DNA from: Paraescarpia echinospica
Taxonomy: Eukaryota > Annelida > Polychaeta > Sabellida > Siboglinidae
Assembly (NCBI GenBank): GCA_020002185.1
Contig: CM034535.1
Location: 71,903,768 to 71,967,767 of the forward strand
Direction: 5' to 3'
Length of the DNA: 64,000 nucleotides
How positions within the stretch are numbered: position 1 is the first letter of the stretch; the number at the start of each line of letters is the position of its first letter. Below the pieces are notes generated by a model. That model searched no databases. It was given only the letters and a program-made list of their open reading frames with translations, and was not told the DNA's origin. Below are positions 1,841-56,680 of this stretch, in pieces. A program made the position numbers and the translations under genes.

Positions 1841-1841
1841 T

Positions 1842-5229: not shown

Positions 5230-5864
5230 CACTAGACAATATAGTGGTTTGCAATTCCACTAGATATGACCTCATGCTTCACTATCATATCAGGCTCAGT
5301 AGTTATAATCACATCGAACAAGGTACAACTTGTGGATGTTACTCTGGTGGGTTTGTTAACAAGCTGAGTTAACTGATGTGACATACATATTTGTACAAAG
5401 TTCTTAGTGTGATTTTCTAATGGTTGTAATAAATCACAGTTAAGATCACCATTGATGATGAACACCAGCTTAGTATATAACTAAAGTTATCAAGTAATAA
5501 TCTTGTTTGTTTTTTAATGTCACTATTCCACAAATGGCTTCCAGATCTTGTGGTATCAAATCTGATTTTTCTTGAAAGTTTATGTTGTCTCTAATATAAA
5601 AAGCACAGCCTCCTCCTGGCTTTTTACTCACTTTCTTCCTATCAGCTCAGAATAATTCATATCCACCAATGTCAAACTTGCTAGTGGGCATATCATTTGT
5701 GAGTTTTGTTTCAATAATGCCAATAATGTCGAAAGGCTTTCGTTGAAAAAGTTGTCTATTTCATCTATCCGTCCCTCGACATCAATACCGTTTACATTAA
5801 TATGAGCAAAAGATAGACCAGCAACAGTGGGAGGGTCTAGTATTTTTTGTATATCTCCACCCAT
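5230..5864 (-). pseudogene. LINE AP-type endonuclease, broken
   Basis: The N-terminal portion reads LSFAHINVNGIDVEGRIDEI, the usual start of an AP endonuclease-like domain. A second frame near 5620-5700 holds the ETKLTNDM-type segment. The C-terminal part (5465-5232) contains the GDLN box (INGDLNCDLLQPL), then LTQLVNKPTRVTSTS and LFDVIITTEPDM. The SDH box expected near the end appears as ANHY, so catalysis is lost. At least two frameshifts separate the pieces. Confidence 0.8.
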
Positions 5865-5942
5865 GTCAATATTTGAGAATCTATCGCCGCCACTAAATAC
5901 ATCACATTCAATGTTATTTATGTCATTGTTGTCATTTTCCTC

Positions 5943-6200
5943 CTATTCACACATTGGACACATAAAAAGGATATCATACGTTTCAAATGCACAAAGTTCC
6001 TGTTGGTTAACATTGACACAGCCGGGGTGCAGCCAAACATCACAAGTGTCACATTGTAGACCATGTTGTGAGTCCACTGTCTTGCTGCAAACATGGCAAC
6101 CATTCTCTGTGGGCCCCGGGTTTAGCTGAATGTCTCCTGCTTTTAATATCTTATAGTCCAGGTAGGATGTGTGAGATGTTTGCTCTAGGAGTGGGTTAAG
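5943..6200 (-). pseudogene. LINE N-terminal 2A-like peptide plus PHD-type zinc finger
   Basis: One open frame reads AGDIQLNPGPT followed eight residues later by a C4-H-C3 finger: CHVC, then CDTC, WLHPGC and a final CPMC. Spacing fits a PHD finger such as occurs in ORF1 or the N-terminus of CR1-like LINEs. DIQLNPGP (6111-6137) is close to the ribosome-skipping 2A consensus D(V/I)ExNPGP with Glu replaced by Gln. Known family members with this change may be less active or inactive; activity is not inferable here. The frame extends upstream to 6323. Confidence 0.75.
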
Positions 6201-6322
6201 GATTGCTGTTTCACCCCAAATTACTCCAGTGGCATCATTCATCGGTGCGACGGTGTTTGTTGCTGGGGTGACTGGACCATGGCTTAGCTCAATGCCCCCC
6301 ATAAGCAACAGCGATGCCAGCA

Positions 6323-6480
6323 TCAGGCCGACGTGAAGAGCTGCATGGCCCTATCCACCCGACGATCTATTTCGCGTGGTTCGCATTCGCAAAGCTCTGC
6401 CAGAGCGGCCATTTCATCGCTGTAGCGCACCCGCATGGAAAGAGCCAATATGGACTCTCCAGGTTTCTGTGGAGATACCA
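6323..6480 (-). pseudogene. possible LTR-retrotransposon gag fragment
   Basis: The open frame contains SPQKPGESILALSMRVR followed by a Glu/Arg-rich helix (EPREIDRRVDRAMQLF). The pattern QKPGES...RVR resembles the 'RPGESxxxFxxRLR' stretch of gypsy-type gag proteins. It stands alone, with no protease, RT or LTR nearby on this strand, and it adjoins the LINE 5' end. The similarity is short, so the call is weak. Confidence 0.3.
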
Positions 6481-7116
6481 TTATAGGTGAGCGATTCGAG
6501 CATGACCATTTTGATTGGCGATTTCTGACCATTGCTGCCAGTTCTATATACACACTGACACAGCAGTATTTATTGCTAGTTTCACACGGACATGGGCTTT
6601 GGTGTTGACGACAGCAACAATTTTTTATCAGATTTTGCATCCAGCATGCAAGTGAATTTTAAGGATTGTAATGTTTACGCTTGACCGCGCACAGGTTGTG
6701 TCAATTTGTGCTGGGCAATGAAGATGCAATTAAGTACGCATGTCAGTTGGCATTGACATCTCCGGTCATGCATGACATGTAGGTAAGGACCTGACTATAG
6801 TTCACGCATGGCTGAATCACAGCTTGTTTCACACAGGTGCACCCTGATATTAAAACTGATTAAATCATAAAAACGTCACTTCTACTTACTAAAATCACAA
6901 AGTCCGATAGAATCGCATACAATATGGTTCAGAGGAAGCAGGAATGTTGATATTGATAACAAAATAAATGTGTATAAAACTTGGAGTATTTTGGGAGTTT
7001 CTGCCGTAAGGACAGAAACTAGGGGAGAAAGATATTTCTGTCGCATGAAGAATTTAGATAAAAGAAACAGATAGGAGCAGAGATTAATTTCTGAAAGTTT
7101 GGCACATTAACACACA
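6481..7116. other. non-coding, no gene seen
   Basis: No splice-bounded frame was recognised. Around 6990-7040 lies a fragment of the dispersed TTTCTGCC repeat also seen at 964-1170. Confidence 0.45.
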
Positions 7117-7474
7117 CACGCGCACACACACGTGCACACACACTCACACACGCGCACACACACTCACACACACACCCACACTCACTCACACATACACACT
7201 CACACACACACTCACACTGACACACTCACACGCACACAGTCAGACACACACACACTCACACACATACTCACACACACACTCACACACACACACTCACACA
7301 CACACTCACACACTCACACATATACACTCATACACACTCAAACACACACACTCACACACACACCCACACTCACACACACTCACACACACATTCACATACA
7401 CACACACACCCTCACATACACACACACTCACACACACACACACACTCACACACACACACACACACACACACACT
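7117..7474. repeat. CA-type microsatellite with interspersed CACTCACA
   Basis: About 360 bp of CA dinucleotides broken at intervals by TCA, giving CACACTCACACACA-like higher periodicity. Long open frames in it (Thr-His on one strand, Cys-Val on the other) are compositional artefacts. Confidence 0.97.
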
Positions 7475-7541
7475 AGCTTGATTATGATGGGATTGGTGCC
7501 AGATTCCTCTTTGACTGTTTCCATGTCTTTGTGTGCATCAG

Positions 7542-7660
7542 ACATGAAGGAGTAGAGCCCCATGTGAAGGAGGCGAATGAGAAGGCACTGAGGAGTCTGA
7601 AGGAACTGAAGTCTTATGAGGACGCACTGGTAACTCAACAAGTTTACACTTTAGACATAC
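7542..7660 (+). CDS. putative internal exon, unidentified helical protein
   Basis: A strong acceptor (a pyrimidine-rich run ending GTGTGCATCAG) is followed by an open frame with a charged, helical look: [19 protein letters not shown], then [20 protein letters not shown]. Two donors are possible: GTAACT after codon L at 7630 (phase 0) and GTATGT at 7661 (phase 1). With the second, the exon ends at phase 1 and would join in frame to the phase-1 acceptor of the downstream repeated 102-bp exon, but such agreement has a one-in-three chance. The peptide resembles HEAT/armadillo-like helices; I cannot assign a family. It lies immediately upstream of the higher-order repeat. Confidence 0.45.
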
Positions 7661-7671
7661 GTATGTGACCT

Positions 7672-7864
7672 GCCACAGCGGAGTGGGTATTAAATCACAA
7701 AATTGTGAAAGTGAGTTTTATACCTTTTTGGATCCCACAGATCGTGTGCCTTAAAACGATACCTCAATTGTTGTAATATCTTCTGTAGTTTTTGATTTAT
7801 CACCAAAATTGAAGAAAACTTAAAATGTGATGTTATGAGAAACAAGGTCCTACTGACTCATACT
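7672..7864 (+). repeat. diverged leading AT-rich block of the higher-order repeat
   Basis: This block, running from CCTGCCACAG to GAGAAACAAGG, is homologous to the AT-rich block that precedes every minisatellite array downstream. It is more diverged than any internal copy (for example GAGTGGGTATTAAATCAC is absent elsewhere), so it marks the edge of the amplified region. Confidence 0.8.
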
Positions 7865-10331
7865 GATTGTGGCTGTTGGTGTGTGTCGGTACCACTTCGT
7901 GATTGTGGCTGTTGTTGCATGCATGTACCACTTGGTGATTGCGGCTGTTGTTCCATGCAGGTACCACTTGGTGATTGTAGCTATTGTTGCATGTAGGTAC
8001 CACATGGTAATTGCGGCTGTAGTTGCATGCAGGTACCATTTGGTGATTGCGGCTGTTGTTGCATGCAGGTACCACTTGGTGATTGTCGCTGTTGTTGCAT
8101 GTAGGTACCACATGGTGATTGCGGCTGTTGTTGCATGCAGGTACCACTTGGTGATTGTGGCTGTTGTTGCATGTAGGTACCACTTGGTGATTGTGACTGT
8201 TGTTGCATGTAGGTACCACTTGGTGATTGTGGCTGTTGTTGCATGAAGGTACCACTTGGTAATTGTGGCTATTGTTGCATGTCGGTACCACTTGGTGATT
8301 GTGGCTGTTGTTGCATGTAGGTACCACTTGGTGATTGTGGCTGTTGTTGCATGAAGGTACCACTTGGTAATTGTGGCTATTGTTGCATGTCGGTACCACT
8401 TGCTGACTGTGGCTGTTGTTGCATGTAGGGATCACTTGGTGATTGTGGCTGTTGTTGCATGTAGGGCCACTTGTTGATTGTGGCTGTTGTTGCATGTAGG
8501 TACCACTTGGTGATTGTGGCTGTTGTTGTGTGTAGGTACCACTTGGTGATTGTGGCTGTTGTTGCATGTAGGTACCACTTGGTGATTGTGGCTGGTGTTG
8601 CATGTACGTACCACTTGGTGATTGTGAGTGTTGTTGCGTGTAGGTACCACTTGGTGATTGTGACTGTTGTTGCGTGTAGGGACCACTTGGTGATTGTTGC
8701 TGTTGTTGCGTGTAGGTACCACTTGGTGATTGTGACTGTTGTTGCGTGTAGGGACCACTTGGTGATTGTTGCTGTTGTTGCGTGTAGGTACCACTTGGTG
8801 ATTGTGGCTGTTGTTGCATGTAGGTACCACTTGGTGCTTGTGGCTGTTGTTGCATATAGGTACCACTTGGTGATTGTGGCTGTTGTTGCATGTAGGTACC
8901 ACTTGGTGATTGTGACTGTTGTTGCATGTAGGTACCACTTGGTGATTGTGGCTGTTGTTGCATGTAGGAACCACTTGGTGGTTGTGGCTGTTGTTGCATG
9001 TAGATACCACATGGTGATTGCGGCTGTTGTTGCATGCATGTACCACTTGGTGATTGCGGCTGTTGTTGCATGCAGGTACCACTTGGTGATTGTCGCTGTT
9101 GTTGCGTGTAGGTACCACATGGTGATTGCGGCTGTTGTTGCATGCAGGTACCACTTGGTGATTGTGGCTGTTGTTACATGTTGGGACCACTTGGTGATTG
9201 TGGCTGTTGTTGCGTGTGCGGACCACTTGGTGATTGTGGCTGTTGTTGTGTGTACGGACCACTTGGTGATTGTGGCTGTTGTTGCATGTAGGTACCACTT
9301 GGTGATTGTGTCTGTTGTTGCGTATAGGTAACACTTGGTGATTGTGGCTGTTGTTGCGTGTAGGTACCACTTGGTGATTGTGGCTATTGTTGCATGTAGG
9401 TACCACTTGGTGATTGTGGCTATTGTTGCATGTAGGTACCACTTGGTGATTGTGGCTGTTGTTGCATGTTGGTACCACTTGGTGATTGTGGCTATTGTTG
9501 CATGTAGGTACCACTTGGTGATTGTGGCTGTTGTTGCATGTAGGTACCACTTGATGATTGCGGCTGTTGTTGCGCATAGGTACCACTTGGTGACTGTGGC
9601 TGTTGTTTTGTGTAGGTACAACTTGGTGATTGTGGCTGTTGTTGCATGTCGGTACAACTTGGTGATTGTGTCTGTTGTTGCATAAAGGTACCACTTGGTG
9701 ATTGTGGCTGTTGTTGTATGTAGGTACCACTTGGTGATTGTGGCTCTTGTTGTGTGTCGGTACAACTTGGTGATTGTGGCTGTTGTTGCATGTCGGTACA
9801 ACTTGGTGTTTGTGTCTGTTGTTGCGTAAAGGTACCACTTGATGATTGTGGCTGTTGTTGTATGTAGGTACCACTTGGTGATTGTGGCTGTTGTTGCATG
9901 TAGGTACCACTTGGTGATTGTGGCTGTTGTTGCGTGTAGGTACCACTTGGTGATTGCGGCTGTTGTTGCATGTAGGTACCACTTGGTGATTGCGGCTGTT
10001 GTTGCGCATAGGTACCACTTGGTGATTGTGGCTGTTGTTTTGTGTAGGTACCACTTGGTGATTGTGGCTCTTGTTGTATGTAGGTACCACTTAGTGATTG
10101 TGGCTTTTGTTGCCTTTAGGTACCACTTGGTGATTGTGACTGTTGTTGTGTGTATGGACCACTTGGTGATTGTTGCTGTTGTTGCGTGTAAGTACCACTT
10201 GGTGATTGTCGCTGTTGTTGCATGTAGGTACCACTTGGTGATTGTCGCTGTTGTTGCATGTAGGTACCATTTGGTGATTGTGGCTGTTGTTGCATGTACG
10301 GACCACTTGGTGATTGTGGCTGTTGTTGTAG
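7865..10331 (+). repeat. 36-bp minisatellite array 1 (about 68 units)
   Basis: The unit begins GTACCACTTGGTGATT and ends GGCTGTTGTTGCATGTAG, with an overlap of a few bases in how I divide it. The period is 36 bp. Each standard unit has a GGTACC site. This is the longest array and the likely source region. Variable positions are mostly CG/CA/TG triplets (TTGCGTG, TTGCATG, TTGTGTG), the signature of methylated-CpG decay. A one-base loss near 8467 is among the few indels. All three minus-strand frames and one plus frame are largely open because 36 is divisible by three; I do not treat these as genes. Confidence 0.97.
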
Positions 10332-11906: not shown

Positions 11907-12861
11907 GTGAGATATCCAACTCATGCCAGATCCAACTGATGACAGATCAAACTCCTAAGAGATCCAACTCAAGACAGATCCATTTCATAAAAATCCACGT
12001 CATGTCAGATCTTGCTAATGACAGATCCAACTGATGCCAGACCCAACCCGTGTCAAATCCAACTCATGATAGATCCAACACACGATAGATCCAACTCATG
12101 ACAGATCAAACTCATGAGAGATCCATTTCATAACAAATCCAAGTTATGTCAGATCAAACTCATGCCAGACTCAGCCCATGTCAGATCCAAATTATGAGAG
12201 ATCCAACTCATGAAAGATCCACATCATGACAAATCCAACTCATGATAGATCCAAGTCACGCCAGATCCAACTGTTGAGCAATCCACCTCACGGGAGATCC
12301 AAATCATGTCAAATCCAACTCATGCCAGATCCAACCCATGTTAGATCCAACCCATGCCAGATCCAACTCCTCTTGAACTTGGTATGTACCAAGTTCAACA
12401 TTCCTGTAAGACCATTAATCAGATTGACACCTTACAAAGTCCAAGGCAGTTCTGTTATTATACATTCGTACCATGTAAAGACTACATCAAATATTCGCAT
12501 ACCAGTTTTTGTTGTAGCAAATATATCCCAACTTCACATAGGACCCCTTATAAACTTTGTAGTGGATCATGTACTAGTCTTGCAGAGGATCATGTTCAAG
12601 CTTTGCAGAGGATCATGTATTGGTCTTGCAGAGGATAATATACTAGCCTTGCCGAGGATTGTGTACAAGCCTTTCAAAGGATCATGTACAAGCTTTACAT
12701 ATATGGCCTGCCATAGTTGAAAAATTGTGAAATTGAGTTTTGTACCTTTTTTGATTCCACTGGACTTGAGCTTTAATTTAAAATATCTTCAGTAGTTTTT
12801 GATTTATTGCTAAAATTGAAGTAAACTTATAATGTGATGTTATGAGAAACAAGGTCATACT

Positions 12862-13313
12862 GATTGTGGCTGTTGTTGCATGTCAGTACCACTTGGTGAT
12901 TGTGGCTGTTGTTGTGTGTCGGTACAACTTGGTGATTGTGACTGTTGTTGCATGTCGGTACAACTTGGTGATTGTGTCTGTTGTTGCATAAAGGTACCAC
13001 TTGGTGATTGTGGCTGTTGTTGCGTGTAGGTACCACTTGGTGATTGCGGCTGTTGTTGCATGTAGGTACCACTTGGTGATTGCGGCTGTTGTTGCGCATA
13101 GGTACCACTTGGTAATTGTGGCTGTTGTTTTGTGTAGGTACCACTTGGTGATTGTGGCTCTTGTTGTATGTAGGTACCACTTAGTGATTGTGGCTTTTGT
13201 TGCCTTTAGGTACCAGTTGGTGATTGTGACTGTTGTTGTTTGTATGGACCACTTGGTGATTGTTGCTGTTGTTGCGAGTAAGTACCACTTGGTGATTGTG
13301 GCTGTTGTTGTAG
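12862..13313 (+). repeat. 36-bp minisatellite array 3 (12 units + 20 nt)
   Basis: Length is exactly 12 x 36 + 20. One unit has TGCATAAAGG, which places TAA in the otherwise open plus frame. Confidence 0.95.
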
Positions 13314-13415
13314 GGACGGCGATCCTGAAGAGCACGGAGACAGTGAAGTCAGGGATGTGGATGACCATCGTAGCAGAACGCAGTCAGCAGGACATCTCAC
13401 TGTGCATCATTGGCG
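13314..13415 (+). CDS. repeated 102-bp exon, copy 3 (ERS/IIGG class)
   Basis: Intact acceptor and GTGAGA donor, no stop. It belongs to the ERS/IIGG class shared with copies 1, 4, 5, 6, 8, 10 and 11. Confidence 0.55.
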
Positions 13416-14263
13416 GTGAGATATCCAACTCATGCCAAATCCAACTCATGACAGATCAAACTCGTAAGAGATCCAACTCAAGACAGATCCATTTCATAAC
13501 AATCCAAGTCATGTCAGATCTAACTAATGACAGATCCAACTTATGCCAGACCCAACCCGTGTCAGATCCAACACACGATATATCCAACTCATGACAGATC
13601 CAAATAATGAGAGATCCAACTCATGAAAGATCCACGTCATGACAGATCCAACTGATGATAGATCCAAGTCACGCCAGATACAACTGACGAGCGATCCAAC
13701 TAGTTGCATGGCAGATCCAAATCATGCCAGATCCAACCCATGTTAGATCCAACCCATGCCAGATCCAACTCCTCTTGAACTTGGTATGTACCAAGTTCAA
13801 CATTCCTGTAAGACCATTAATCAGATTGACACCTTACAAAGTCCAAGGCAGTTCTGTTATTATACATTCGTACCATGTAAAGACTACATCAAATATTCGC
13901 ATACCAGTTTTTGTTGTAGCAAATATATCCCAACTTCACATAGGACCCCTTATAAACTTTGTAGAGGATCATGTACTAGTCTTGCAGAGGATCATGTTCA
14001 AGCTTTGCAGAGGATCATGTATTGGTCTTGGAGAGGATAATATACTAGCCTTGCAGAGGATTGTGTACAAGCCTTTCAAAGGATCATGTACAAGCTTTAC
14101 ATATATGGCTTACCACAGTTGAAAAATTGTGAAATTGAGTTTTGTACCTTTTTTGATTCCACTGGACTTGAGCTTTAAATTAAAATATCTTCAGTAGTTT
14201 TTGATTTATTGCTAAAATTGAAGTAAACTTATAATGTGATGTTATGAGAAACAAGGTCATACT
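13416..14263 (+). repeat. representative inter-array spacer (anatomy of one unit)
   Basis: From the donor of copy 3, a degenerate 16-bp satellite (AGATCCAACTCATGAC type, about 350 bp) starts within a few bases of GTGAGAT. It is followed by a unique block with the hairpin at 13777-13798. Six head-to-tail 23-bp repeats (TTGCAGAGGATCATGT plus seven variable bases) follow at about 13959-14096. An AT-rich block of about 165 bp then ends GAGAAACAAGGTCATACT, directly before the next array. Spacers in longer units have extra 16-bp repeats. Confidence 0.9.
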
Positions 14264-14601: not shown

Positions 14602-15449
14602 GTGAGATATCCAACTCATGCCAAAGCCAACTCATGACAGATCAAACTCGTAAGAGATCCAACTCAAGACAGATCCATTTCATAACAATCCAAGTCATGT
14701 CAGATCTAACTAATGACAGATCCAACTTATGCCAGACCCAACCCGTGTCAGATCCAACACACGATATATCCAACTCATGACAGATCCAAATAATGAGAGA
14801 TCCAACTCATGAAAGATCCACGTCATGACAGATCCAACTGATGATAGATCCAAGTCACGCCAGATACAACTGACGAGCGATCCAACTAGTTGCATGGGAG
14901 ATCCAAATCATGCCAGATCCAACCCATGTTAGATCCAACCCATGCCAGATCCAACTCCTCTTGAACTTGGTATGTACCAAGTTCAACATTCCTGTAAGAC
15001 CATTAATCAGATTGACACCTTACAAAGTCCAAGGCAGTTCTGTTATTATACATTCGTACCATGTAAGGACTACATCAAATATTCGCATACCAGTTTTTGT
15101 TGTAGCAAATATATCCCAACTTCACATAGGACCCCTTATAAACTTTGTAGAGGATCATGTACTAGTCTTGCAGAGGATCATGTTCAAGCTTTGCAGAGGA
15201 TCATGTATTGGTCTTGCAGAGGATAATATACTAGCCTTGCAGAGGATTGTGTACAAGCCTTTCAAAGGATCATGTACAAGCTTTACATATATGGCCTACC
15301 ACAGTTGAAAAATTGTGAAATTGAGTTTTGTACCTTTTTTGATTCCACTGGACTTGAGCTTTAAATTAAAATATCTTCAGTAGTTTTTGATTTATTGCTA
15401 AAATTGAAGTAAACTTATAATGTGATGTTATGAGAAACAAGGTCATACT

Positions 15450-15685
15450 GATTGTGGCTGTTGTTGCATGTCGGTACCACTTGGTGATTGTGGCTGTTGT
15501 TGTGTGTCGGTGCAACTTGGTGATTGTGGCTGTTGTTGCATGTCGGTACAACTTGGTGATTGTCGCTGTTGTTGCATGTAGGTACCACTTGGTGATTGTC
15601 GCTGTTGTTGCATGTAGGTATCATTTGGTGATTGTGGCTGTTGTTGCATGTACGGACCACTTGGTGATTGTGGCTGTTGTTGTAG
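15450..15685 (+). repeat. 36-bp minisatellite array 5 (6 units + 20 nt)
   Basis: Exactly 6 x 36 + 20; differs from array 4 by isolated substitutions. Confidence 0.95.
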
Positions 15686-15787
15686 GGATGGCGATCCTGA
15701 AGAGCACGGAGACAGTGAAGTCAGGGATGTGGATGACCATCGTAGCAGAACGCAGTCAGCAGGACATCTCACTGTGCATCATTGGCG
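15686..15787 (+). CDS. repeated 102-bp exon, copy 5 (ERS/IIGG class)
   Basis: Thr to Met as in copy 4. The donor is GTAAGA instead of GTGAGA, still a good 5' splice site. Confidence 0.55.
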
Positions 15788-16635
15788 GTAAGATATCCAA
15801 CTCATGCCAAATCCAACTCATGACAGATCAAACTCGTAAGAGATCCAACTCAAGACAGATCCATTTCATAACAATCCAAGTCATGTCAGATCTAACTAAT
15901 GACAGATCCAACTTATGCCAGACCCAACCCGTGTCAGATCCAACACACGATAGATCCAACTCATGACAGATCCAAATAATGAGAGATCCAACTCATGAAA
16001 GATCCACGTCATGACAGATCCAACTGATGATAGATCCAAGTCACGCCAGATACAACTGACGAGCGATCCAACTAGTTGCATGGGAGATCCAAATCATGCC
16101 AGATCCAACCCATGTTAGATCCAACCCATGCCAGATCCAACTCCTCTTGAACTTGGTATGTACCAAGTTCAACATTCCTGTAAGACCATTAATCAGATTG
16201 ACACCTTACAAAGTCCAAGGCAGTTCTGTTATTATACATTTGTACCATGTCAGGACTACATCAAATATTCGCATACCAGTTTTTGTTGTAGCAAATATAT
16301 CCCAACTTCACATATGACCCCTTATAAACTTTGTAGAGGATCATGTACTAGTCTTGCAGAGGATCATGTTCAAGCTTTGCAGAGGATCATGTATTGGTCT
16401 TGGAGAGGATAATATACTAGCCTTGCAGAGGATTGTGTACAAGCCTTTCAAAGGATCATGTACAAGCTTTACATATATGGCTTACCACAGTTGAAAAATT
16501 GTGAAATTGAGTTTTGTACCTTTTTTGATTCCACTGGACTTGAGCTTTAAATTAAAATATCTTCAGTAGTTTTTGATTTATTGCTAAAATTGAAGTAAAC
16601 TTATAATGTGATGTTATGAGAAACAAGGTCATACT

Positions 16636-16871
16636 GATTGTGGCTGTTGTTGCATGTCAGTACCACTTGGTGATTGTGGCTGTTGTTGTGTGTCGGTGCA
16701 ACTTGGTGATTGTGGCTGTTGTTGCATGTCGGTACAACTTGGTGATTGTCGCTGTTGTTGCATGTAGGTACCACTTGGTGATTGTCGCTGTTGTTGCATG
16801 TAGGTATCATTTGGTGATTGTGGCTGTTGTTGCATGTACGGACCACTTGGTGATTGTGGCTGTTGTTGTAG
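16636..16871 (+). repeat. 36-bp minisatellite array 6 (6 units + 20 nt)
   Basis: Exactly 6 x 36 + 20; third member of the 1,186-bp tandem series. Confidence 0.95.
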
Positions 16872-16973
16872 GGACGGCGATCCTGAAGAGCACGGAGACA
16901 GTGAAGTCAGGGATGTGGATGACCATCGTAGCAGAACGCAGTCAGCAGGACATCTCACTGTGCATCATTGGCG
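16872..16973 (+). CDS. repeated 102-bp exon, copy 6 (ERS/IIGG class)
   Basis: Intact, consensus sequence of its class. Copy 11 lies 6,767 bp downstream in matching context. Confidence 0.55.
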
Positions 16974-19514: not shown

Positions 19515-19616
19515 GGACGGCGATCCTGAAGAGCACGGAGACAGTGAAGTCAGGGATGTGGATGACCATCGTAGCAGAACGCAGTCAGCAGGACATCTCA
19601 CTGTGCATCATTGGCG
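19515..19616 (+). CDS. repeated 102-bp exon, copy 8 (ERS/IIGG class)
   Basis: Intact, class consensus. Confidence 0.55.
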
Positions 19617-20464
19617 GTGAGATATCCAATTCATGCCAAATCCAACTCATGACAGATCAAACTCGTAAGAGATCCAACTCAAGACAGATCCATTTCATAA
19701 CAATCCAAGTCATGTCAGATCTAACTAATGACAGATCCAACTTATGCCAGACCCAACCCGTGTCAGATCCAACACACGATATATCCAACTCATGACAGAT
19801 CCAAATAATGAGAGATCCAACTCATGAAAGATCCACGTCATGACAGATCCAACTCATGATAGATCCAAGTCACGCCAGATCCAACTGACGAGCGATCCAA
19901 CTAGTTGTATGGGAGATCCAAATCATGCCAGATCCAACCCATGTTAGATCCAACCCATGCCAGATCCAACTCCTCTTGAACTTGGTATGTACCAAGTTCA
20001 ACATTCCTGTAAGACCATTAATCAGATTGACACCTTACAAAGTCCAAGGCAGTTCTGTTATTATACATTCGTACCATGTAAGGACTACATCAAATATTCG
20101 TATACCAGTTTTTGTTGTAGCAAATATATCCCAACTTCACATATGACCCCTTATAAACTTTGTAGAGGATCATGTACTAGTCTTGCAGAGGATCATGTTC
20201 AAGCTTTGCAGAGGATCATGTATTGGTCTTGCAGAGGATAATATACTAGCCTTCCAGAGGATTGTGTACAAGCCTTTCAAAGGATCATGTACAAGCTTTA
20301 CATATATGGACTGCCACAGTTGAAAAATTGTGAAATTGAGTTTTGTACCTTTTTTGATTCCACTGGACTTGAGCTTTAAATTAAAATATCTTCAGTAGTT
20401 TTTGATTTATTGCTAAAATTGAAGTAAACTTAAAATGTGATGTTATGAGAAACAAGGTCATACT

Positions 20465-41330: not shown

Positions 41331-42193
41331 TGGATTGATAAAAGATGGGTTCATAAGTGCATGTATTTTATTAGTTTGGGATTACTTGTCAAGTAAAATA
41401 AACTGGACATTGGAATATGAGATTATAAAGTATGCATTTATGCCAAAATCTTGAAATTGATGGAACATGACTTACATAGTTATTCTTGGTTTGTGTTCAA
41501 AATAGACCTGTGCGACTTAATACCTGGTTTGCTGTGCGCAGGTCATGTATGAAGTGTTTAGGATATTGATCGGTTATGAACCTTGACATAGAACTATTTA
41601 TTCTCCAGAACAATGTAGTGTTTGTGGCATTTTCACTATATGATAGTCAAAGAATTGTTATTTGAATTAAACTAGATACACATTAAAGAGAACATAGTCT
41701 GCTACAAGTATACGCACCTAGATAAATGTGCTACAATGGTTACTATATATTATGTACATAGCACGTCACGCCAGTGCAGTCACATATGTAATTAAATAGT
41801 AAATTAAGCAGCAAGAAATAAACTTTGGAGCAAATGTTTAAACAAAGTAAGTTTATTTTTTGTAGTCTAATGGAATCTTGGAGCCATAAACAATATTATA
41901 TTTCATATATAATAAATTAGGCATTTTATAATGCACAGTATATCTGGATTTAAACCAGCTCAAAGATGGTGCCAATATAAAATGTATAAGAAAAGTCTAG
42001 TTAAATTAAGTAATTGAGTTTAATTTTAAACCAATCAGACTAAGCTAAGATAATAATAAGTTAAATCCAGTTAATGAATACATTGAAACCAATGTTGTTA
42101 CTATATATTTTAACAGTCCTTAGCAATCTTTACAAATTATTACTTCTCATCATTTATTCTGTTTTCCCGTAGTTTGATTCCAGTGATGTGTCA
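41331..42193. other. AT-rich non-coding, no gene seen
   Basis: No open splice-bounded segment or repeat recognised. Probably intronic or intergenic. Confidence 0.5.
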
Positions 42194-42456
42194 TTTATTT
42201 TAATAAAACAAAATAGGTTTGAATATCTGTTATGTGCAAAATGGTGGCAACTGAAGACTCCAGTTAGAAAATGGTGATGCAAGATTCCCAACATTTAAAC
42301 ATACTGATTTTTGATCATATTAATAGCTAATTATAGATCATACTTTAACCGATATGAATTTTAAAGCATTTTTTTCAGTTTAAAAATAAAACCCAGGTAT
42401 TTGTTATATTAGCTGTGGTATGAGTAGATGAATATGGATGAAGTTGTTGACTTCAG

Positions 42457-42560
42457 AACTGGGAGGAAAGGAAGTCTTGAGATCAGCGGATTCAGCTTTG
42501 TAAAGGGAGAATCTGGAGTGGTATTACTTCTGCTGAAAACATGCGGCAACTTGTATATTG
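42457..42560 (+). CDS. laminin-G domain exon (penultimate), copy 1
   Basis: Bounded by GACTTCAG and ATTG|GTAAGT, 104 nt, no stop. The peptide TGRKGSLEISGFSF, then KGESGVVLLLLKTCGNLYIG, ends at phase 1. It joins in frame to the exon at 43216, giving the diagnostic LYIGG-x-PNL of laminin G domains. The strand pattern R-x-G-R-x-G-S-L-x-I-x-G is the usual L-x-V-D-G region. The acceptor phase is 2, whereas the repeated 102-bp exon ends at phase 1, so direct splicing between them would shift the frame unless another exon or acceptor is used. The frame is open upstream to 42428. Confidence 0.7.
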
Positions 42561-43215
42561 GTAAGTTTCACAAATATCTTGTACTTAAAAATGTAGCAAG
42601 TAACAGTTATAGAAAACATGCATGGCATTGCATACAACTGTCCCAAGTTACGCAATCTTCATCAAATGTCTTATATAAATACGTCTTGAAACCGTCTCTT
42701 GCGTCTATGAGGGTAGCGCCATGATGCACACAAAATACCCAACTAAGCACTTGGTTTCTTACCTAAGCATGAAAATACAAGTGACCAAGTGATCCCTTCT
42801 GATGGAACAGTATTTTTGTTAGTTTGTGTAATAATTGATGTATCCACTACATCGCGGTTATGCTTACATCACAATTGAATTTTGTACGTGACCTCCGTCA
42901 AGCTTTGCTTTGCCAACATTGTTGTTAATGGTTATATATCTGTGAATTACATTGCTATTGCTGCATGACATCTCATAAATGAAACATTCCCACATGCAGT
43001 TGTCAATTTAGAAACTTTGCCTTTTCTTTTTGCCATTAAGAAACACTTGTGACCAGAATTTCAACAAAATATTCAAATGGAATGTCCGATACCACCACAT
43101 GTTTTCTGATGACTTGACAGAGGTTTTGCTAGGCAACAGGTCACGTGTGGATAGGTTAACTGTAGCGTGTTTGACCAGTGTTGCCAGAGGGTTGACAGTG
43201 GTTGTTATGCTTCAG

Positions 43216-43328
43216 GCGGCGCGCCTAACCTGGACGGCATGACATTTGCCCAGCACGAGAAGATGCAGGAGGGTTGTGTCAGCAACCTGTACATCCAGGG
43301 CAAGGGACCCCTTGACATCACTCTCTAA
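43216..43328 (+). CDS. laminin-G domain last exon, copy 1
   Basis: Acceptor GTTATGCTTCAG, then GGAPNLDGMTFAQHEKMQ, then EGCVSNLYIQGKGPLDITL and TAA. The GC-x-x-NLYI-x-GK-x-x-LD-I ending is the conserved C-terminal strand of laminin G domains (including the second Cys of the usual disulfide). Against copy 2, copy 1 has lost roughly 60-70 bp just after the LDIT codons. This creates the TAA, so the ancestral protein was longer. Confidence 0.75.
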
Positions 43329-44752
43329 ATTGTTCTTGTTTCTTTATGTTTTGGGGCTAGTGTTGCAGGCAGTATTTTGTTAAACAAAACATCTATTATT
43401 ATGTCAACTTTATTAGTTTTATTAACAGAAATGTAACCAATTAAAATTATATATTTCAGCTGGTTGATACTTGATTTAAAACTTATTAACACAACAACAA
43501 GAACAAGAAAGTTTATTCACCTGGTTGATATTTGAAACAAAAGAAGTTTTGTTGTCATCTGGTTGGAAAATGTGTATAATAAAAAGATCTATTATATGAC
43601 TGATGAAATTATTAAGTATTGGAAATCGTGAGAAGTGGCAAACGAAATGTCACGAAGGTGAATGCCTATGCAACAGGAAGGTAGATGTTGGAGTATTGGT
43701 TGGTTGGTTGGTTCTGCTAGGCCTGATGCTGTAATATGTAATGCTGAAGAGTAGATATTGACTTAGGCAGCATAGCTAAGTCAACCAAAGAGAAACACCC
43801 GCTGTATTTTTAATGTTGCAAACAGCATCTAGACAATGTAAACTTGTGTGTAGCTACAGTGATATGAAATGTGTAGATCAAGTCTATGCGAAACAGGAGG
43901 TTAAATAATATCTGAATGAATTGTACCATTAGCCTGTAGATATGAATTGTTTGTAATTTGATTTGATTTGTACACATTTTCTAGCAGTAAATTGTTGTCC
44001 TTGAATTTTGAAGGTCAGATTCACAAAGCAATGTTGATATGATGGAGTGATAAGGTAATTATATGCAATCATACCACTAGATCATGCCAACAAAAGTGAT
44101 GGTCTAATACAAAGTATTTATTGAGCGCATATGTCAAATATGCCAACTACAAATATTGAATATTTTTCCACACAGAAACAGAGTTGAAGGGGAAAGAAAT
44201 CTTGTGATGTATTTCATTAGAAAGTGCAACATTTCACATATCCCATGCCTGCTTTTGTAGAGTTGGATGAACCATGTGTGGTTTAATGATATATATGTTT
44301 AAAATACACCATCGTTGCCTTATATTTTAGATGCCAGTATGTTATAATGAAAATGTCAAAAGCATGAAACATTAGGTTTAAGTAGTAAATTATTTAAAGA
44401 TTTATTGACATGCTCGTCTACCTGACCTGGTGAAAACTAGATGCTCATTGGTTCTAAGATGAAAACAGTTTATGGTGTGTAGATCTACATTTAGGTGGGT
44501 AATGTTGGATTTTCTTTCATATTGGGGGTAACAAGCAAAGTTCACACGATTCAAATATGTATACTATCAATAGTAACTTGTGTATTATTTATTTTGATAT
44601 AAAGAAACACACTGTTTCGTCAATGAGAACATTATTTTGTTATTCCCTAACTTGAACTTGTTTCAAACATTTGACATTCTGTAACACTGTCTTTTAAAAT
44701 TTGTATTTAGGGTTGATTGTGTCGCGCCTCTATGTGGCTGCACCGAAACAAT
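43329..44752. other. non-coding, mostly within the segmental duplication
   Basis: No further exon was recognised after the TAA. Contains a short TTGGTTGG run near 43697. Confidence 0.5.
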
Positions 44753-49735: not shown

Positions 49736-50860
49736 TCAATTCAGCTTTACGTCTTTGCAACTATAGTGCTTTGAGTTCATCATCAAACCAAGTGGCCTCA
49801 CTACCCTAGTTTTGGATTTGGTGGGTGTGTGCCTATCCAACAACTGTCTTAATGCGGTATTGTATTCACCAGCTAGATGATTGATATCCGTGATGCTCAA
49901 TAGTGCATTAGCTATACCCCTGAAGTCAGTGCTGAAAGCTTTGTTATCAATTTGTGTCAGTTTCCTATACGATATAGTACATGTCTCTAAAGGAGGTCTG
50001 GGCATGTTTACTCGATAACGCACAAACATGTGATCCGAGACCATGTAATCAGCCACCGGGTAACTAAGAAGTTCACGATTACGCCTAGTGACAATTAAAT
50101 CGAGAGTATGACCAGATCTATGAGTTGCAACCCTAACATGTTGTTTTAAGTCATACATACTCAGTACATCACACATTGTTATTGCATCAGCATCGATGTC
50201 AATATCCATATGAATATTAAAATGACCTACTACAGGAGTGATTGAGGGGTGTGAACTGCATGTGACAGGTAGTTCTGAAATTCCTCAAAGAAAGTAGCAG
50301 TAGTGACACGATGGTTTTACGAATACGGTGGTCGGTATATCACATGCACATCAACTTTCGTCTTTTCGCACAATAATTCATAGCAAATTAAAAGGAACAT
50401 CACTTTTCAGTGAATACTGCCGGACAGTCTTGGATTGTTCTTGAGATGATAGCCACTGGGTGTTAGTTCCTCGCGTTTGACCGCATCACCAGATGTCAAT
50501 CAGGTCTCCGTTATCAGAACGATATCAGTGTCACTAGTAATGATATTCTCACTGACGTCTGCAGTTTTGTTCCACACACAACACGGATTCACAAGAGCGA
50601 GTTGGATGTCCCTTGTCCGTCACGATGGTGTGTTTACTCGCTTAACATGGATTAGATTGTTCAGATTAGCTCCTGTCCGAGCATCACGAATATTGAGCAG
50701 TTTCTCTGTTGCTGTTGTTACTGCTGTCGCCATCACTGCTGCTGCTGCCGCCATCGCTGCTTCTGCCGCCGTTGCTGTTGTCGCTGCTGCTGCTGTTGTC
50801 ATTGTTGATGCCGCTGCCAAAGTTGCATGCGAGGTTGCGTCATCACTGTGCATAATTGAA
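49736..50860 (-). mobile_element. LINE endonuclease fragment (CR1/L2 type), decayed
   Basis: On the minus strand, from about 50860: an Ala/Thr-rich low-complexity stretch, LNIRDARTGANLNNL, ALVNPCCVWNKTADVSE, DIVLITET followed by a stop where Trp is expected, KVDVHVIYRPPYS, FFEEFQNYLSH, GHFNIHMDID (GDFN box with Asp to His), then RSGHTLDLIVTR and VSDHMFVRYRV (SDH box present). The longest intact frame is 50209-49736. No RT follows; the element ends inside the region after the endonuclease. Confidence 0.8.
50700..50815. repeat. GCT/GCC/GTT trinucleotide-rich tract
   Basis: Imperfect trinucleotide runs coding for Ala/Thr in the LINE frame on the minus strand. They are continuous with the endonuclease reading frame, so they are probably part of the element's ORF rather than a separate microsatellite. 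Confidence 0.7.
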
Positions 50861-51390
50861 GTTGTGCAGATATCAGTGGTGTATGTGTAATGTTGCCATA
50901 AAATATATTAGTTAACACAGTTAATGTCGGAATCGAATGATAGTGGTTAATTCCGCAGGGTCAGTGTGTTTTTGCCATGGAACAAATCTTTAATAACCGA
51001 AGCGTTTGTAGAGTCTTTAGCGGTATCGTTTGTTTGGCCTTCATTGCAATGACCCCGAAGGCATGCAGTTCTTGACTGGTGAAAGCCAGCATGTTTACAA
51101 ACAGTCTGTTAAGCGTAAACACTGATTTAACAATGGGAAAGTAATTTTACTTATTTATTCACTTATTTTAATAAAAAATAGGTTTCAGTATATGTTATGT
51201 TACAAATGGTGGCAACTGAAGACTCCAGTTAGAAAATGATGATGCAAGATTCCCAACATTAAAACATACTGATTTTACTTTAACCAATGTGAATTTTAAA
51301 GCATTTTTTTCAGTTTAAAAATAAAACCCAGGTACTTGTGATATTAGCTGTTGTATGAGTGGACCAATATGGATGATGTGTTCACTTCAG

Positions 51391-51494
51391 AACTGGGAGG
51401 AAAGGAAGTCTTGAGATCGATGGATTCAGCTTTGCAGAGGGAGAAACTGGAGGAGTATCATGCATGCTGAACACACGCGGCAACATGTAAATTG
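51391..51494 (+). pseudogene. laminin-G domain exon, copy 2, with a stop
   Basis: 104 nt as in copy 1, bounded by CACTTCAG and ATTG|GTAAGT. The frame reads TGRKGSLEIDGFSFAEGETGG..., then NTRGNM, TAA, IG. TAA replaces the Tyr-containing stretch of LYIG. Outside the stop it is closer to the family consensus than copy 1 (EIDG and NTRGN against EISG and KTCGN). Confidence 0.65.
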
Positions 51495-52156
51495 GTAAGT
51501 CTCACAAATATATTGTACTTAAAAATGCAGCATGGAACAATCATAGGAAACATGCATGGCATTGCATACAACTGTCCCAAGTTATGCAATCTTCATCAAC
51601 TGTCTCATATAAATCCTTCTTCAAACCGTCTCTTGCGTCTCTGTAGGTAGCGCCATGTGTCACACAAAATACCAGACTAAGCACTTGGCTTCTTACCTAA
51701 CCGTGAAAATGATCACCATACAAATAACCAAGTTATTCCTTCTGATGGATAAGTATTTTTTAGTTTGTATAATAATTGATGTATCCACTACATCGCGGTT
51801 TTGCTTACATCACAATTTAATTTTGTACGTGACCTCCGTCAAGTTTTGCTTTGCCAACAATGTTGTTAATGGTTATATATACGTGAATTACATTGCTATT
51901 GCTGCATGACATCTCCTAATTCAAACATTCCCACATACAGTGGTCACTTTACAAACTGCATTATATTTTTGTTATAAAGAAACACTTTTGTGACCAGAAT
52001 TTCAACAAAATATTTGACGGAATGTCCGAACCCACTACATATTTTCTGATGACTTGACGGAGGTGTTGCTAGGCAACAGGTCACATGACGGAGAGGTTAA
52101 CTGTAGCGTGTTCGGCCAGTATTGCCAGAGTGTTGACAGTGGTTGTTATGCTCCAG

Positions 52157-52284
52157 GTGGCGTGCCTAACCTGGACGGCATGACATTTGGTCAGCACAAG
52201 AAGATGCTGGAGGGTTGTGTCATCCATGGCAAGGACCCCTTGACCTCACCATTGTCGCTGTTCGGGTATGTCCTGGCGCCCTGA
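52157..52284 (+). pseudogene. laminin-G domain last exon, copy 2, with deletions
   Basis: Reads GGVPNLDGMTFGQHKKM, then LEGCVIHGKDPL. Relative to copy 1 it lacks 12 nt (SNLY) and one G in GGGACCCC, which shifts the frame to end in TGA after VLAP. In the unshifted frame the sequence continues LDLTIVAVRVCPGALTPLF, a hydrophobic C-terminus deleted in copy 1. The two copies thus have different lesions. Confidence 0.65.
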
Positions 52285-52832
52285 CACCCCTCTTTGCTGC
52301 AGCCGTCCAGTTGCTACAGTGTTTTTGTTTCTTTATGTTTTGGGGCTAGTGTTGGAGACAGTTTTTTCTTAAACAAAATGTATTATTTTGTCAGCTTTAT
52401 TAGTTTTATTAATAGAAATGTAACCGATTAAAGTTATATATCTCGGCTGGTTGATACTTGATTTGAAACTTATGTTGCCAACATAATTAGGAGGTTAACT
52501 AATGTCAGAATGAATTGTACTATTAGCCTATAGATGTGAATTCTTTGTAATTTTACTTTATTTGTATACATTTTCTAGCAGTAAAATGTTGTCTTTGAAT
52601 GTTGAAGGGCAGATTCACAAAGCAATGTTAATATGATGGAGAGATAAGGTAATTATGTGCAATCATACCATGATATCATGCCAACTGAAGTGAAGGTCTG
52701 ATACAAGGTATTTATTGTGCGCAAATGCCAAATATGCCAAATACTTATTGAATATTTTTCCACACAGAAACAGAGTTGTAGGGGAAAGAAATCTTGTGAT
52801 GTATTTCATTAGAATGTACAACATTTGACACA

Positions 52833-54241
52833 GTCCCACTGATATATATTTATAACAGACAGACATACAGACAGACAGTATTTTTTTTACACCATAACAC
52901 ATATTTTTTTTACCACCATAAGCACATAAACTACAATATAATATTCATTGTAAGGTCAGGGAGGCTCCCATTAAGACAATTATATGCAGCTATCATGGGA
53001 GCAACCCTACTGATGTAACTGGATAGTGGACTTTGCCCTGGTCACTTACTAGGCTGTGAGTGGAGTGGCCAGCTGTAAATGTGTGTATTGGTCTAGCCTA
53101 GTTAATTTTCTTTAGTGTACCTTTTGTTCTCAAATAATCTGTCCTCTTAGTTTTACAAATGAAGACATAATCTGGCATAACTTGATAAGTTTTTGTAGCA
53201 GTACATTTGTACTTCCAATGTAACTTTGCAACATAACATACACACTGTATGTAATATTCTCATGCAATCCATTTGCATATATAATGTAAAACTTCAACAG
53301 CAGTTTTCTTCATTTTCACTTTTTGACCCCTACCATGTTCAATGCGCCATAACTTCGCAAATTTTTGTAGCAGTCATAATTTTTGAAACTGTAAAAGCAC
53401 CCTACCCAACCTTTACAAGAATGAAAGAAAACAATGTTAAAATTTTTCTGACTTATCACTCATTTGGTCAGCCGGGGTCACATAGACGTATTAGTCCAAA
53501 GGACTTCAGGGCCACTTGGCCCATTTTGTTTTATAAATATTCTTATCTATTTATTATATATATATGTTTTAATGTTTTTTAACAATCTTATTGAGTACAT
53601 TCCATGTTCTAGTATTGTGATGCACCTCCAAATTATTAATTGCCATATTTATGGTGCAGAAGAATCCTGTTGAATTATTATTATAAGACAATATTCATAA
53701 TTACAGAGAATCCATTGTTAAATTTAAGTGGAGACACCCCAGTCTGAAAAATTCCCAGTACGACACATGGTGGCATTGTTTCCTTATTTCCCATATAATT
53801 ATCTTTGTATTATAATTTTTCAGAAATGTTTTGATCTTATTTATTATTTATATATAATGTATATATATATAAATATATATATCAATGATCTTAATGGGTA
53901 CATTCCATGTTTTAGTATTATAATGCACCTCTGAATGGTGGAGTGGAGACACCATACTCTTAAATATGTTTTTCTAAAAAGCTGATCAATCTCATCAGAA
54001 ATGAATTGTATGAAGTTAGTATATTACTATTGTAAATAAAATGTCTCATGAAAAGAAATGTCAAAAAACTGTTGATAGCAGTGACAAGAAAGTATCCCAG
54101 TGAATGGCAGACATCAACTGGATGTTCCCTTAGTTTTTCAAATGTTTCAGTATCAGATATATAATATATCACCATAGTTGTTATACTGATTGGGTGGACT
54201 AGTGAATTATGCAGCGTATACAGAGCAGCCTTGTGTTGTAG
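52833..54241. other. AT-rich non-coding, no gene seen
   Basis: Contains an ACAG-type microsatellite near 52858-52880, TA-rich tracts near 53550 and 53860, and a possible interspersed repeat near 53290-53510. Two related blocks (ACATTCCATGTTCTAGTATTG near 53598 and ACATTCCATGTTTTAGTATTA near 53899) show a local duplication. Probably an intron of the KDM6 gene. Confidence 0.5.
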
Positions 54242-54350
54242 AAAGAAGAAATTCCGCATGATCAAGTTTGGCACCAACGTTGATTTGTCTAATGAGAAGA
54301 AATGGAAGGCACAACTCCAGGAGTTGGGAAAACTTCCCGCCTTCACACGA
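54242..54350 (+). CDS. KDM6: KDM6 (UTX/JMJD3) exon just before the JmjC core
   Basis: KDM6 enzymes remove methyl groups from lysine 27 of histone H3 in the nucleus, using Fe(II) and 2-oxoglutarate. The exon follows TTGTGTTGTAG at phase 2 and ends CGA|GTATGT at phase 0, 109 nt. Its peptide [20 protein letters not shown], then [15 protein letters not shown], closely matches the conserved KDM6 stretch immediately N-terminal to the JmjC core (form: IKFGTNIDLS...W...LQEL.KLPAF.RV). The catalytic Fe(II) and 2-oxoglutarate ligands are further downstream and not in this window. The next exon at 55652 joins exactly in phase. Orthology to UTX versus JMJD3 cannot be decided; most invertebrates have one gene. 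Confidence 0.92.
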
Positions 54351-54421
54351 GTATGTCTCCCATTGTCTCCCTCCCTCTCTTTCTCCCTCCAACCATCCCT
54401 CCCTCCTTCCCTTCCACACAG
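54351..54421 (+). promoter_or_regulatory. strong pyrimidine tract and first (ancestral-looking) 3' splice site
   Basis: After the donor GTATGT the intron is almost all C and T and ends TTCCCTTCCACACAG at 54421, a near-ideal acceptor. It is followed by GTTGTAGCCGCCAGTAA, a close copy of the true exon start 1,230 bp downstream. Splicing here would be in frame for 32 codons ([13 protein letters not shown]...) and then meet TAA at 54518-54520. Confidence 0.7.
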
Positions 54422-55651
54422 GTTGTAGCCGCCAGTAATATGTGCCACTGTAACCGTTACAGGTTGTACCAGCCAGTAACCTGTACCACTGTAACCATTA
54501 CAAGTTGTAGCATCCAGTAACCTGTGCCATTGTAACGGTTACAGGTTGTAGCATCCGGTAACCTGTGCTAATGTAACAGTCATAGGTTGTAGCAGACAGT
54601 AATATGTGCCACTGTAACCGTTACAGGTTGTAGCCGCCAGTAACATGTGCCACTGTAACCGTTACAGGTTGTAGCAGCCAGTAACCTGTACCACTTTAAC
54701 CGTTACAGGTTGTAGCATCCAGTAACCTGTGCCACTGTAACCGTTGCAGGTTGTAGCAGCCAGTAACCTGTGCCAGTGTAACTGTTACAGGTTGTAGCAT
54801 CCAGTATCCTGTGCCAGTGTAACCGTTACAGGTTGTAGCATCCAGTATCCTGTGCCACTGTAACCGTTACAGGTTGTAGCAGCCAGTAACATGTGCCACA
54901 GTAACCATTACAGGTTGTAGCCACCAGTAACATGTACCACTGTAGCCGTTACAGGGTGTAGCCACCAGTAACATGTGTCACTGTAACCGTTACATGTTGT
55001 AGCCACCACTAACATGTGTCACTGTAACCATTACAGGTTGCAGCCACCAGTAACATGTGCCACTGTAACCGTTACAGGTTGTAGCCACCAATAACATGTG
55101 TCACTGTAACCGTTACAGGTTGTAGCCACCAGTAACATGTACCACTGTAGCCCTTACAGGTTGTAGCCACCAGAAACATGTGCCACTGTAACCATTACAT
55201 GTTGTAGCCATCAGTAACATGTGTCACTTTAACCGTTACATGTTGTAGCCATCAGTAACATGTGCCACTGTAACCGTTACAGGTTGTAGCCACCAGTAAC
55301 ATGTGCCACTGTAACCGTTACAGGTTGTAGCCACCAGTAACATGTGTCACTGTAACCGTTACAGGTTGTAGCCATTAGTAACATGTGTCACTGTAACCGT
55401 TACAGGGTGTAGCCACCAGTAACATGTGTCACTTTAACCGTTACAGGTTGTAGCCACCAGTAACATGTGCCACTGTAACCGATACAGGTTGTAGCCACCA
55501 GTAACATGTGCCACTGTAACCGTTACAGGTTGTAGCCACCAGTAACATGTGCCACTGTAACCGTTACAGGTTGTAGTTGCCAGTAACATGTACCACTGTA
55601 ACCGTTACAGGTTGTAGCCACCAGTAACATGTGCCACTGTAACCGTTACAG
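54422..55651 (+). repeat. 41-bp satellite, exactly 30 units, derived from the exon boundary
   Basis: The consensus unit runs GTTGTAGCCACCAGTAAC, ATGTGCCACTG, TAACCGTTACAG. The first 21-22 bases copy the start of the KDM6 exon at 55652 (GTTGTAGCTGCCAGTAAC) with two changes, and TTACAG is the acceptor used before that exon. The distance between the first and last acceptor is 1,230 bp, which equals 30 x 41 with no net indel. Each unit also has the inverted repeat GTAAC-C-GTTAC. Early units (54422-54850) contain AGCATCC or AGCAGCC variants; later ones are AGCCACC. Confidence 0.95.
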
Positions 55652-55680
55652 GTTGTAGCTGCCAGTAACATGCTGAGTCA
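55652..55680 (+). CDS. KDM6: KDM6 next exon, truncated by the assembly gap
   Basis: Starts at phase 0 after CCGTTACAG and reads VVAASNMLS plus the start of a His codon before the Ns. The KDM6 family has VVSAGN(L/M)LSH directly after LPAF.R, so the continuation is exact. Only nine complete codons are visible. The pyrimidine tract before this acceptor is poor, because it is the end of a satellite unit. Confidence 0.88.
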
Positions 55681-56680
55681 NNNNNNNNNNNNNNNNNNNN
55701 NNNNNNNNNNNNNNNNNNNNNNNNNNNNNNNNNNNNNNNNNNNNNNNNNNNNNNNNNNNNNNNNNNNNNNNNNNNNNNNNNNNNNNNNNNNNNNNNNNNN
55801 NNNNNNNNNNNNNNNNNNNNNNNNNNNNNNNNNNNNNNNNNNNNNNNNNNNNNNNNNNNNNNNNNNNNNNNNNNNNNNNNNNNNNNNNNNNNNNNNNNNN
55901 NNNNNNNNNNNNNNNNNNNNNNNNNNNNNNNNNNNNNNNNNNNNNNNNNNNNNNNNNNNNNNNNNNNNNNNNNNNNNNNNNNNNNNNNNNNNNNNNNNNN
56001 NNNNNNNNNNNNNNNNNNNNNNNNNNNNNNNNNNNNNNNNNNNNNNNNNNNNNNNNNNNNNNNNNNNNNNNNNNNNNNNNNNNNNNNNNNNNNNNNNNNN
56101 NNNNNNNNNNNNNNNNNNNNNNNNNNNNNNNNNNNNNNNNNNNNNNNNNNNNNNNNNNNNNNNNNNNNNNNNNNNNNNNNNNNNNNNNNNNNNNNNNNNN
56201 NNNNNNNNNNNNNNNNNNNNNNNNNNNNNNNNNNNNNNNNNNNNNNNNNNNNNNNNNNNNNNNNNNNNNNNNNNNNNNNNNNNNNNNNNNNNNNNNNNNN
56301 NNNNNNNNNNNNNNNNNNNNNNNNNNNNNNNNNNNNNNNNNNNNNNNNNNNNNNNNNNNNNNNNNNNNNNNNNNNNNNNNNNNNNNNNNNNNNNNNNNNN
56401 NNNNNNNNNNNNNNNNNNNNNNNNNNNNNNNNNNNNNNNNNNNNNNNNNNNNNNNNNNNNNNNNNNNNNNNNNNNNNNNNNNNNNNNNNNNNNNNNNNNN
56501 NNNNNNNNNNNNNNNNNNNNNNNNNNNNNNNNNNNNNNNNNNNNNNNNNNNNNNNNNNNNNNNNNNNNNNNNNNNNNNNNNNNNNNNNNNNNNNNNNNNN
56601 NNNNNNNNNNNNNNNNNNNNNNNNNNNNNNNNNNNNNNNNNNNNNNNNNNNNNNNNNNNNNNNNNNNNNNNNNNNNNNNN
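55681..56680. other. assembly gap, 1,000 N
   Basis: Exactly 1,000 Ns, the usual placeholder for a gap of unknown length. It lies between the truncated KDM6 exon and a CT-rich tract. Further JmjC exons may lie within it. Open frames through it are meaningless. Confidence 0.98.

Follow-up and report, generated by a model that had tools for sequence, protein, structure and literature searches.

Minisatellites formed from KDM6 splice junctions in a fuller gene and in its scattered partial copies in a probable spiralian genome

Introduction

Tandem duplications across intron/exon boundaries have been described in lancelets as mirages. In excerpts from two reports (PMC3087553, PMC3902484), they are found in the globin genes BflGb6 and BflGb9, in Adh3 and in troponin C, and similar imperfect repeats are described in PGBD5. 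According to the same excerpts (PMC3087553, PMC3902484), either boundary can be affected, regular mRNAs were reported, and cryptic use of the repeats was held possible. An excerpt on human genes in segmental duplications describes minisatellites at exon-intron boundaries that can give rise to novel introns and alternative transcripts (PMC2812944). A model of intron gain, cited in the excerpt of PMC3087553, holds that duplicated exon sequence containing AG and GT becomes an intron. No splice-junction minisatellite of a spiralian was recognized in open-licence full texts, and nothing recognized as such a case emerged from the literature on oyster splice-site minisatellites and on bivalve KDM6 copy number. 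One paper gives a single KDM6 orthologue for each of three annelids.

Here we analyzed an array in a stretch of DNA of 64,000 nucleotides (the window), together with related arrays elsewhere in the same genome. The present arrays show the structural features of mirages as these excerpts describe them: units that span the boundary at both 5' and 3' splice sites, a genuine copy that is kept, a variable copy number, and AG or GT in many units. Unlike the lancelet cases, they occur in what appears to be a spiralian, at five edges of one gene and in tens of scattered gene fragments, and they reach about 80 copies at one of the junctions in the gene on contig C14 and 196 copies of a 43-bp unit in a dispersed copy. 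The units measure 41-83 bp here, compared with 10-72 bp in Adh3 and 150-160 bp in the globins in the excerpt of PMC3087553. The human duplicated genes, as excerpted, resemble the present case in having minisatellites in duplicates, some of them at exon-intron boundaries and expanding in the copies; the human units average 30 bp and four copies, whereas the arrays here are longer and occupy the intron side of junctions that already exist (PMC2812944). As in the excerpted intron-gain model, exon sequence becomes intronic when splice signals are included in a duplication; here, however, an existing intron was lengthened, and no new intron was seen. We consider it likely, with a probability of roughly 0.7, that the array is a mirage-type splice-junction minisatellite with exon-proximal splicing, carried in amplified KDM6 fragments.

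Results

A tandem array of a KDM6 3' splice junction

Exon 1 of the JmjC part of a partial KDM6 copy was located at positions 54242-54350 of the window, on the plus strand like all features of this copy, with an acceptor AG at 54240-54241 and a donor GTATGT from 54351. It matched KDM6A (PDB 3avr), with an E-value of 3.2e-14 when combined with the peptide VVAASNMLS encoded behind the array, and its amino acids were identical to those of the exon in a copy on contig C10. The intron starts with a CT-rich stretch (54357-54417) and, at the end of this stretch, the first acceptor's pyrimidine tract (CCCTTCCACACAG; pyrimidine fraction 0.88). This is followed by 30 tandem 41-bp units (54422-55651), each composed of 21 bases of the start of exon 2 and 20 further bases mostly ending in TTACAG, and then by the first 29 bases of the genuine exon 2 (VVAASNMLS, 55652-55680), which is cut by a scaffold gap of exactly 1000 N (55681-56680). 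Gaps in L009 and L018, the two others seen among the fetched loci, also measured 1000 N, and exon 2 in other copies runs on to ...MKVPGSRTPG. Exon 1 and these 29 bases were the only KDM6 JmjC sequence in the window; neither human nor family-specific queries revealed a later KDM6 exon in its remainder.

Tandem Repeats Finder described the array (54418-55672) as having a period of 41, 30.6 copies, 90% matches and 0% indels. Copies of the exon start were found at 54422+41k with k from 0 to 30, and the distance from first to last was 1230 bp, or 30 x 41; the thirty-first copy of the series is the KDM6 exon start itself, with 30 head-to-tail 41-bp units before it. The original prediction had described the unit as the 3' splice junction of exon 2 in tandem, with the real exon start 30 units downstream and parted by the array from a strong pyrimidine tract at the first copy. 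The analysis confirmed this description, and the idea of a duplicated junction proved right. The predicted stop after 32 codons upon choice of the first acceptor was also reproduced, and the remaining upstream copies led to stops after 8-32 codons; the sole open choice in the window was the last copy, over the 27 bases present. Up to 31 competing acceptors had been envisaged. There are indeed 31 copies, but an AG is retained before only 27 of them, the exon's own included, leaving 27 candidate acceptors; it has been lost before copies 3, 15, 20 and 21 (4 of 31).

Each of the 30 upstream copies differs from the first 21 bases of the exon at one to four positions, a resemblance far beyond chance, which contradicts the possibility raised with the prediction that unit and exon are alike only by accident. 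That the array adjoins a scaffold gap might speak for an assembly artefact or for an unrelated satellite that happens to resemble the exon. We regard this as extremely improbable, given that 21 exon bases are involved, that 26 further loci analyzed carry an array before this exon, and that gap-free examples run on through the exon. Chance likeness or an independent satellite was ruled out by the 21-base exon match together with the same-exon arrays elsewhere.

Arrays at five exon edges of the fuller gene on C14

The genome searched comprised 1,083,790,144 bases in 3111 contigs. A KDM6 exon lying upstream of those in the window had one match genome-wide (C14:25703655-25703906, 67% identity, E-value 3.3e-27), and this genome search found none in the window. 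Because this exon was matched once, on C14, we interpret the window as containing a partial 3' copy and C14 as containing a fuller gene. The window copy is therefore not a complete KDM6 gene, a possibility ruled out by this sole match, and the original placement of the array in "the" KDM6 gene did not hold. Homology between the window and the single C14 gene starts near 53637 and includes a common intron piece (53637-54241), in which 53701-53925 is inverted relative to C14.

Exon sequences matched the JmjC and C-terminal parts of KDM6A, and the exons read encode what we take to be iron-site residues, namely HxE and the later His. The best near-full-length match in a search with the spliced protein showed 68% identity, and no close relative was found.

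A repeat unit crosses the exon-intron boundary at five edges of the C14 gene, compared with one acceptor visible in the window. Positions here refer to a 22-kb stretch starting at C14:25693500. Array 1 (4882-9999; unit 63 bp, roughly 80 copies) contains the end of exon A with the donor GTATGTTT and a CTCTGTCAG stretch, and array 2 (12653-13495; 41 bp, 20.6 copies) contains the acceptor and start of exon 2. Array 3 (14842-15740; 42 bp, 21.7 copies) carries the end of exon 3 with the donor GTAAGT, array 4 (15985-16956; 43 bp, 23.0 copies) the acceptor TTTGTAG and the start of exon 4, and array 5 (19586-20419; 83 bp, 10.0 copies) an acceptor and the whole last coding exon, extending downstream of it. 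Two further arrays in the interval from exon A to the last exon, with units of 49 bp and 22 bp, are intronic, so that five of the seven non-coding arrays overlap exon edges. The coding sequence of exon 6 contains a 21-bp repeat, which was left out of this count together with CT-rich microsatellites and with arrays out of range (e.g., a 44-bp array downstream). When seven units of these lengths were placed at random in the collapsed gene, in a comparison framed after the arrays had been seen, with two exon edges misplaced by a single base and the last exon's end treated as an edge, at least five edge hits had P values of 0.001, 0.0004 and 0.00008 at required overlaps of 1, 5 and 10 bases, respectively.

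We also compared the 20 non-exon bases of the 41-bp unit with the next bases of the exon. The first unit on C14 gave a shuffle p of about 0.007, in one of two tests, and the common C14 unit gave about 0.5. A derivation of the filler from the next exon bases is thus weakly suggested by the first unit and not by the common unit.

Dispersed partial copies

Searches with two 41-bp units gave at least 454 genome matches (40 of 137 first-look candidates scored), and a human JmjC-part query gave at least 123 matches (452 candidates). Around the arrays, we read 25 loci (L001, L003, L005 and L007-L028) and one more found via exon 5 (L036); L002, L004 and L006 were shifted views of three other loci. The 41-bp array preceded the same KDM6 exon in all 26 further loci analyzed, 25 of which had been chosen for a matching array. 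The preceding exon and the CT-rich tract were present in 21 of the 26 and absent from L007-L009, L019 and L026; L028 contained two such arrays, and L019 an extra array piece with no exon behind it. The main 41-bp array ranged from 12.0 to 60.6 copies (27 entries, window included), showing that the repeat number is unstable between loci, which were compared here rather than alleles. In two other loci found via exon 5 (L037 and L038), no 41-bp array was present in about 10 kb each; the L037 stretch was filled by an exon-4 array, and no other exon was seen in L038. The L037 array (28-8383 of a locus on C65) comprises 196 copies of the 43-bp unit over 8.4 kb, with a higher-order period of 470 bp. 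Arrays 2 and 4 are mostly long across the dispersed copies, in contrast to the short array 3 (2.1-5.8 copies).

Exon 5 occurred at no fewer than 75 places in the genome. Among the 75 listed, 42 were on contigs C1-C14, on 13 of these 14, and 27 carried at least one stop; some of the short contigs may be second haplotypes. For the copy on C10, homology to C14 includes the last exon and reaches position 21493 of the 22-kb C14 stretch, and several copies lie 20-55 kb apart. Exon 6 is whole on C14, and its start is missing in three copies that were read (L030, L034 and L035). Examples of frameshifts were found in exon 3 of L014 and L026 and in exon 4 of L023. The copies thus resemble the KDM6 (UTX/UTY/JMJD3) H3K27 demethylases in their JmjC and C-terminal exon matches and differ from KDM6 genes in lacking the upstream exon, found on C14 only, in the lost start of exon 6 in these three, and in the stops at 27 of the 75 listed exon-5 places. 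The window holds one of dozens of scattered partial KDM6 copies.

The left flank of the window copy (50417-53636, plus strand) is partly common to 13 of the 20 loci L009-L028, a count in which many loci were truncated where the fetched stretch stops, and it is absent from the C14 stretch read. Two versions of this flank occur in the window, at 42191-44245 and 50919-52556; the same flank parts of other loci are ~84-90% identical to the former and ~92-98% to the latter.

The shared flank and the wide spread of exon 5, with at least 75 places and 42 on 13 of the contigs C1-C14, would fit the capture of a 3' part of KDM6 by a transposable element that spread it as cargo along with the arrays. Against this, no terminal repeats, target-site duplication or transposase was tied to the copies, whose fragment ends are unmapped, and the 20-55 kb spacing of several copies fits segmental duplication as well. 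We consider transposon cargo possible, if rather unlikely; it covers the dispersal only and is compatible with a mirage-type array carried in amplified fragments.

Mean pairwise dN/dS was calculated over distinct sequences with at least 85% ungapped coverage, a set that favors intact copies because shorter and frameshifted ones were dropped. The values were 0.49 for exon 1 (22 copies), 0.20 for exon 3 (19 copies), 0.31 for exon 4 (10 entries, 9 loci) and 0.32 for exon 5 (7 entries, 6 loci). None of these sequences had a stop. Exon 2 (27 copies, L001-L028 and L036) showed hardly any synonymous and many amino-acid differences, unlike the four other exons tested, with a dN/dS of about 9 (pS 0.005, pN 0.048).

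Acceptor choice and retention of splice sites

On C14, each of the 20 upstream copies of the gene, 17 of which carry AG, led to a stop after 9-32 codons, and the last copy alone was open through the exon. The original prediction had raised the possibility of an unproductive-splicing switch on a histone demethylase. In such a switch, use of an early acceptor would lead to nonsense-mediated decay and less KDM6, possibly tuned by repeat number. Three observations agree with such a switch: the first acceptor has the best pyrimidine tract in the window (fraction 0.88 over positions -20 to -4, compared with 0.47-0.65 for the others), every upstream copy in the window and in the C14 gene gives an early stop, and boundary minisatellites of human duplicated genes are reported, in the excerpt cited above, to alter splicing (PMC2812944). 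However, the window copy is a partial duplicate, the repeat number is unconserved, ranging from 12.0 to 60.6 among copies, and lancelet mirages are reported, in the excerpted parts, without aberrant mRNAs (PMC3087553, PMC3902484). Moreover, donors are repeated too, at two of the five C14 edges, which a one-acceptor switch does not predict. Given that the window contains a scattered fragment and that the arrays are spread over donors and acceptors of the C14 gene, the proposal is unsupported, and we consider it very doubtful, though conceivable for the C14 gene.

The exon-proximal acceptor is most likely the one used in splicing, as judged from our comparison of sites and as reported for lancelet mirages. 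The repeat acceptor had a pyrimidine fraction of 0.59. Seven further acceptors of the gene, placed by homology, covered a range of 0.41-0.82; one of these itself adjoins an array, and the eighth (exon 5) was unmatched by its pattern. The last acceptor is therefore not unusually weak for this KDM6 gene.

Exon-adjacent sites were kept in nearly all copies read. With each locus counted once, the AG before exon 2 was present at 27 of 28 places (27 of 27 recognized, plus L013, where a small deletion had removed it), the AG before exon 4 at 13 of 13, and the GT after exon 3 at 22 of 22. The corresponding sites elsewhere in the arrays were present in 708 of 775 (exon 2), 711 of 941 (exon 4) and 55 of 76 cases (exon 3). 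In these counts, the copies share ancestry, and strongly changed or broken sites would escape the patterns used; for the 41-bp array alone, the excess of exon-adjacent over other AG was not significant.

Host lineage and comparison loci

Nine Hox matches were found in one stretch of C3, and the eight that were read include what we take, from signature motifs, to be Lox5 (KLTGP behind the homeodomain), two Lox2/Lox4-like genes and one Post2-like gene. These spiralian-type Hox genes ruled out a lancelet genome and point to a spiralian one, perhaps that of a bivalve. Eight homeobox loci, measuring about 1.3 kb, and a 10-kb myosin stretch showed no junction array; the myosin stretch has two short arrays (2.0 and 2.8 copies), neither of which falls within the exon matches. 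In this small sample, junction arrays are not a property of every gene. The C5 myosin gene (L050, 5476-6228) contains adjoining similar myosin-head exon frames that look, by eye, like tandem alternative exons.

Elsewhere in the window, a 102-bp laminin-G-like, exon-like stretch occurs in 21 tandem copies spaced 1.2-2.0 kb apart (10332-40436, with arrays over 7864-41152). Its Pfam match (PF00054, E-value 0.036) falls below the cut-off of that family; all 21 copies are open, each with an AG before and a GT after it. Arrays of 36, 16 and 23 bp lie between the copies, and the 36-bp unit carries an acceptor and perhaps four exon bases. On the minus strand, the window contains two retroelement-like frames, one that resembles an endonuclease by eye, with no Pfam match (49739-50284), and a reverse transcriptase (3851-4723) with 559 relatives at an E-value of 1e-30 or better.

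Discussion

The mirage-type reading can be set out as a series of steps. The start of a KDM6 exon and its 3' splice site would have been duplicated in tandem and expanded on the intron side, while the exon-adjacent copy stayed in place. The array would have arisen in the single fuller C14 gene, or before that gene was duplicated, and a 3' fragment of the gene with its introns and arrays would later have been duplicated and scattered to tens of loci. Expansion probably proceeded by slippage or unequal exchange, and we infer that repeat number drifts in a nearly neutral manner, with splicing to the exon-proximal acceptor.

Alternatively, a mutational or selective process biased toward junctions may have acted in a spiralian at five edges of one chromatin-regulator gene. 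Spare sites may then be favored, or buffered by exon-proximal choice, and the arrays would travel with the fragments as genome-wide satellites. We consider this broader explanation unlikely.

Whichever process formed them, junction minisatellites offer natural experiments on how splice sites are chosen, in which dozens of near-identical sites stand beside one genuine site. The gene with five arrays makes the choice of the spliceosome among such sites directly testable. The present arrays extend a phenomenon named in lancelets to another branch of animals, one that the Hox genes suggest is spiralian. They further indicate how part of one gene can give rise to a genome-wide satellite, which annotation could misread as many KDM6 genes.
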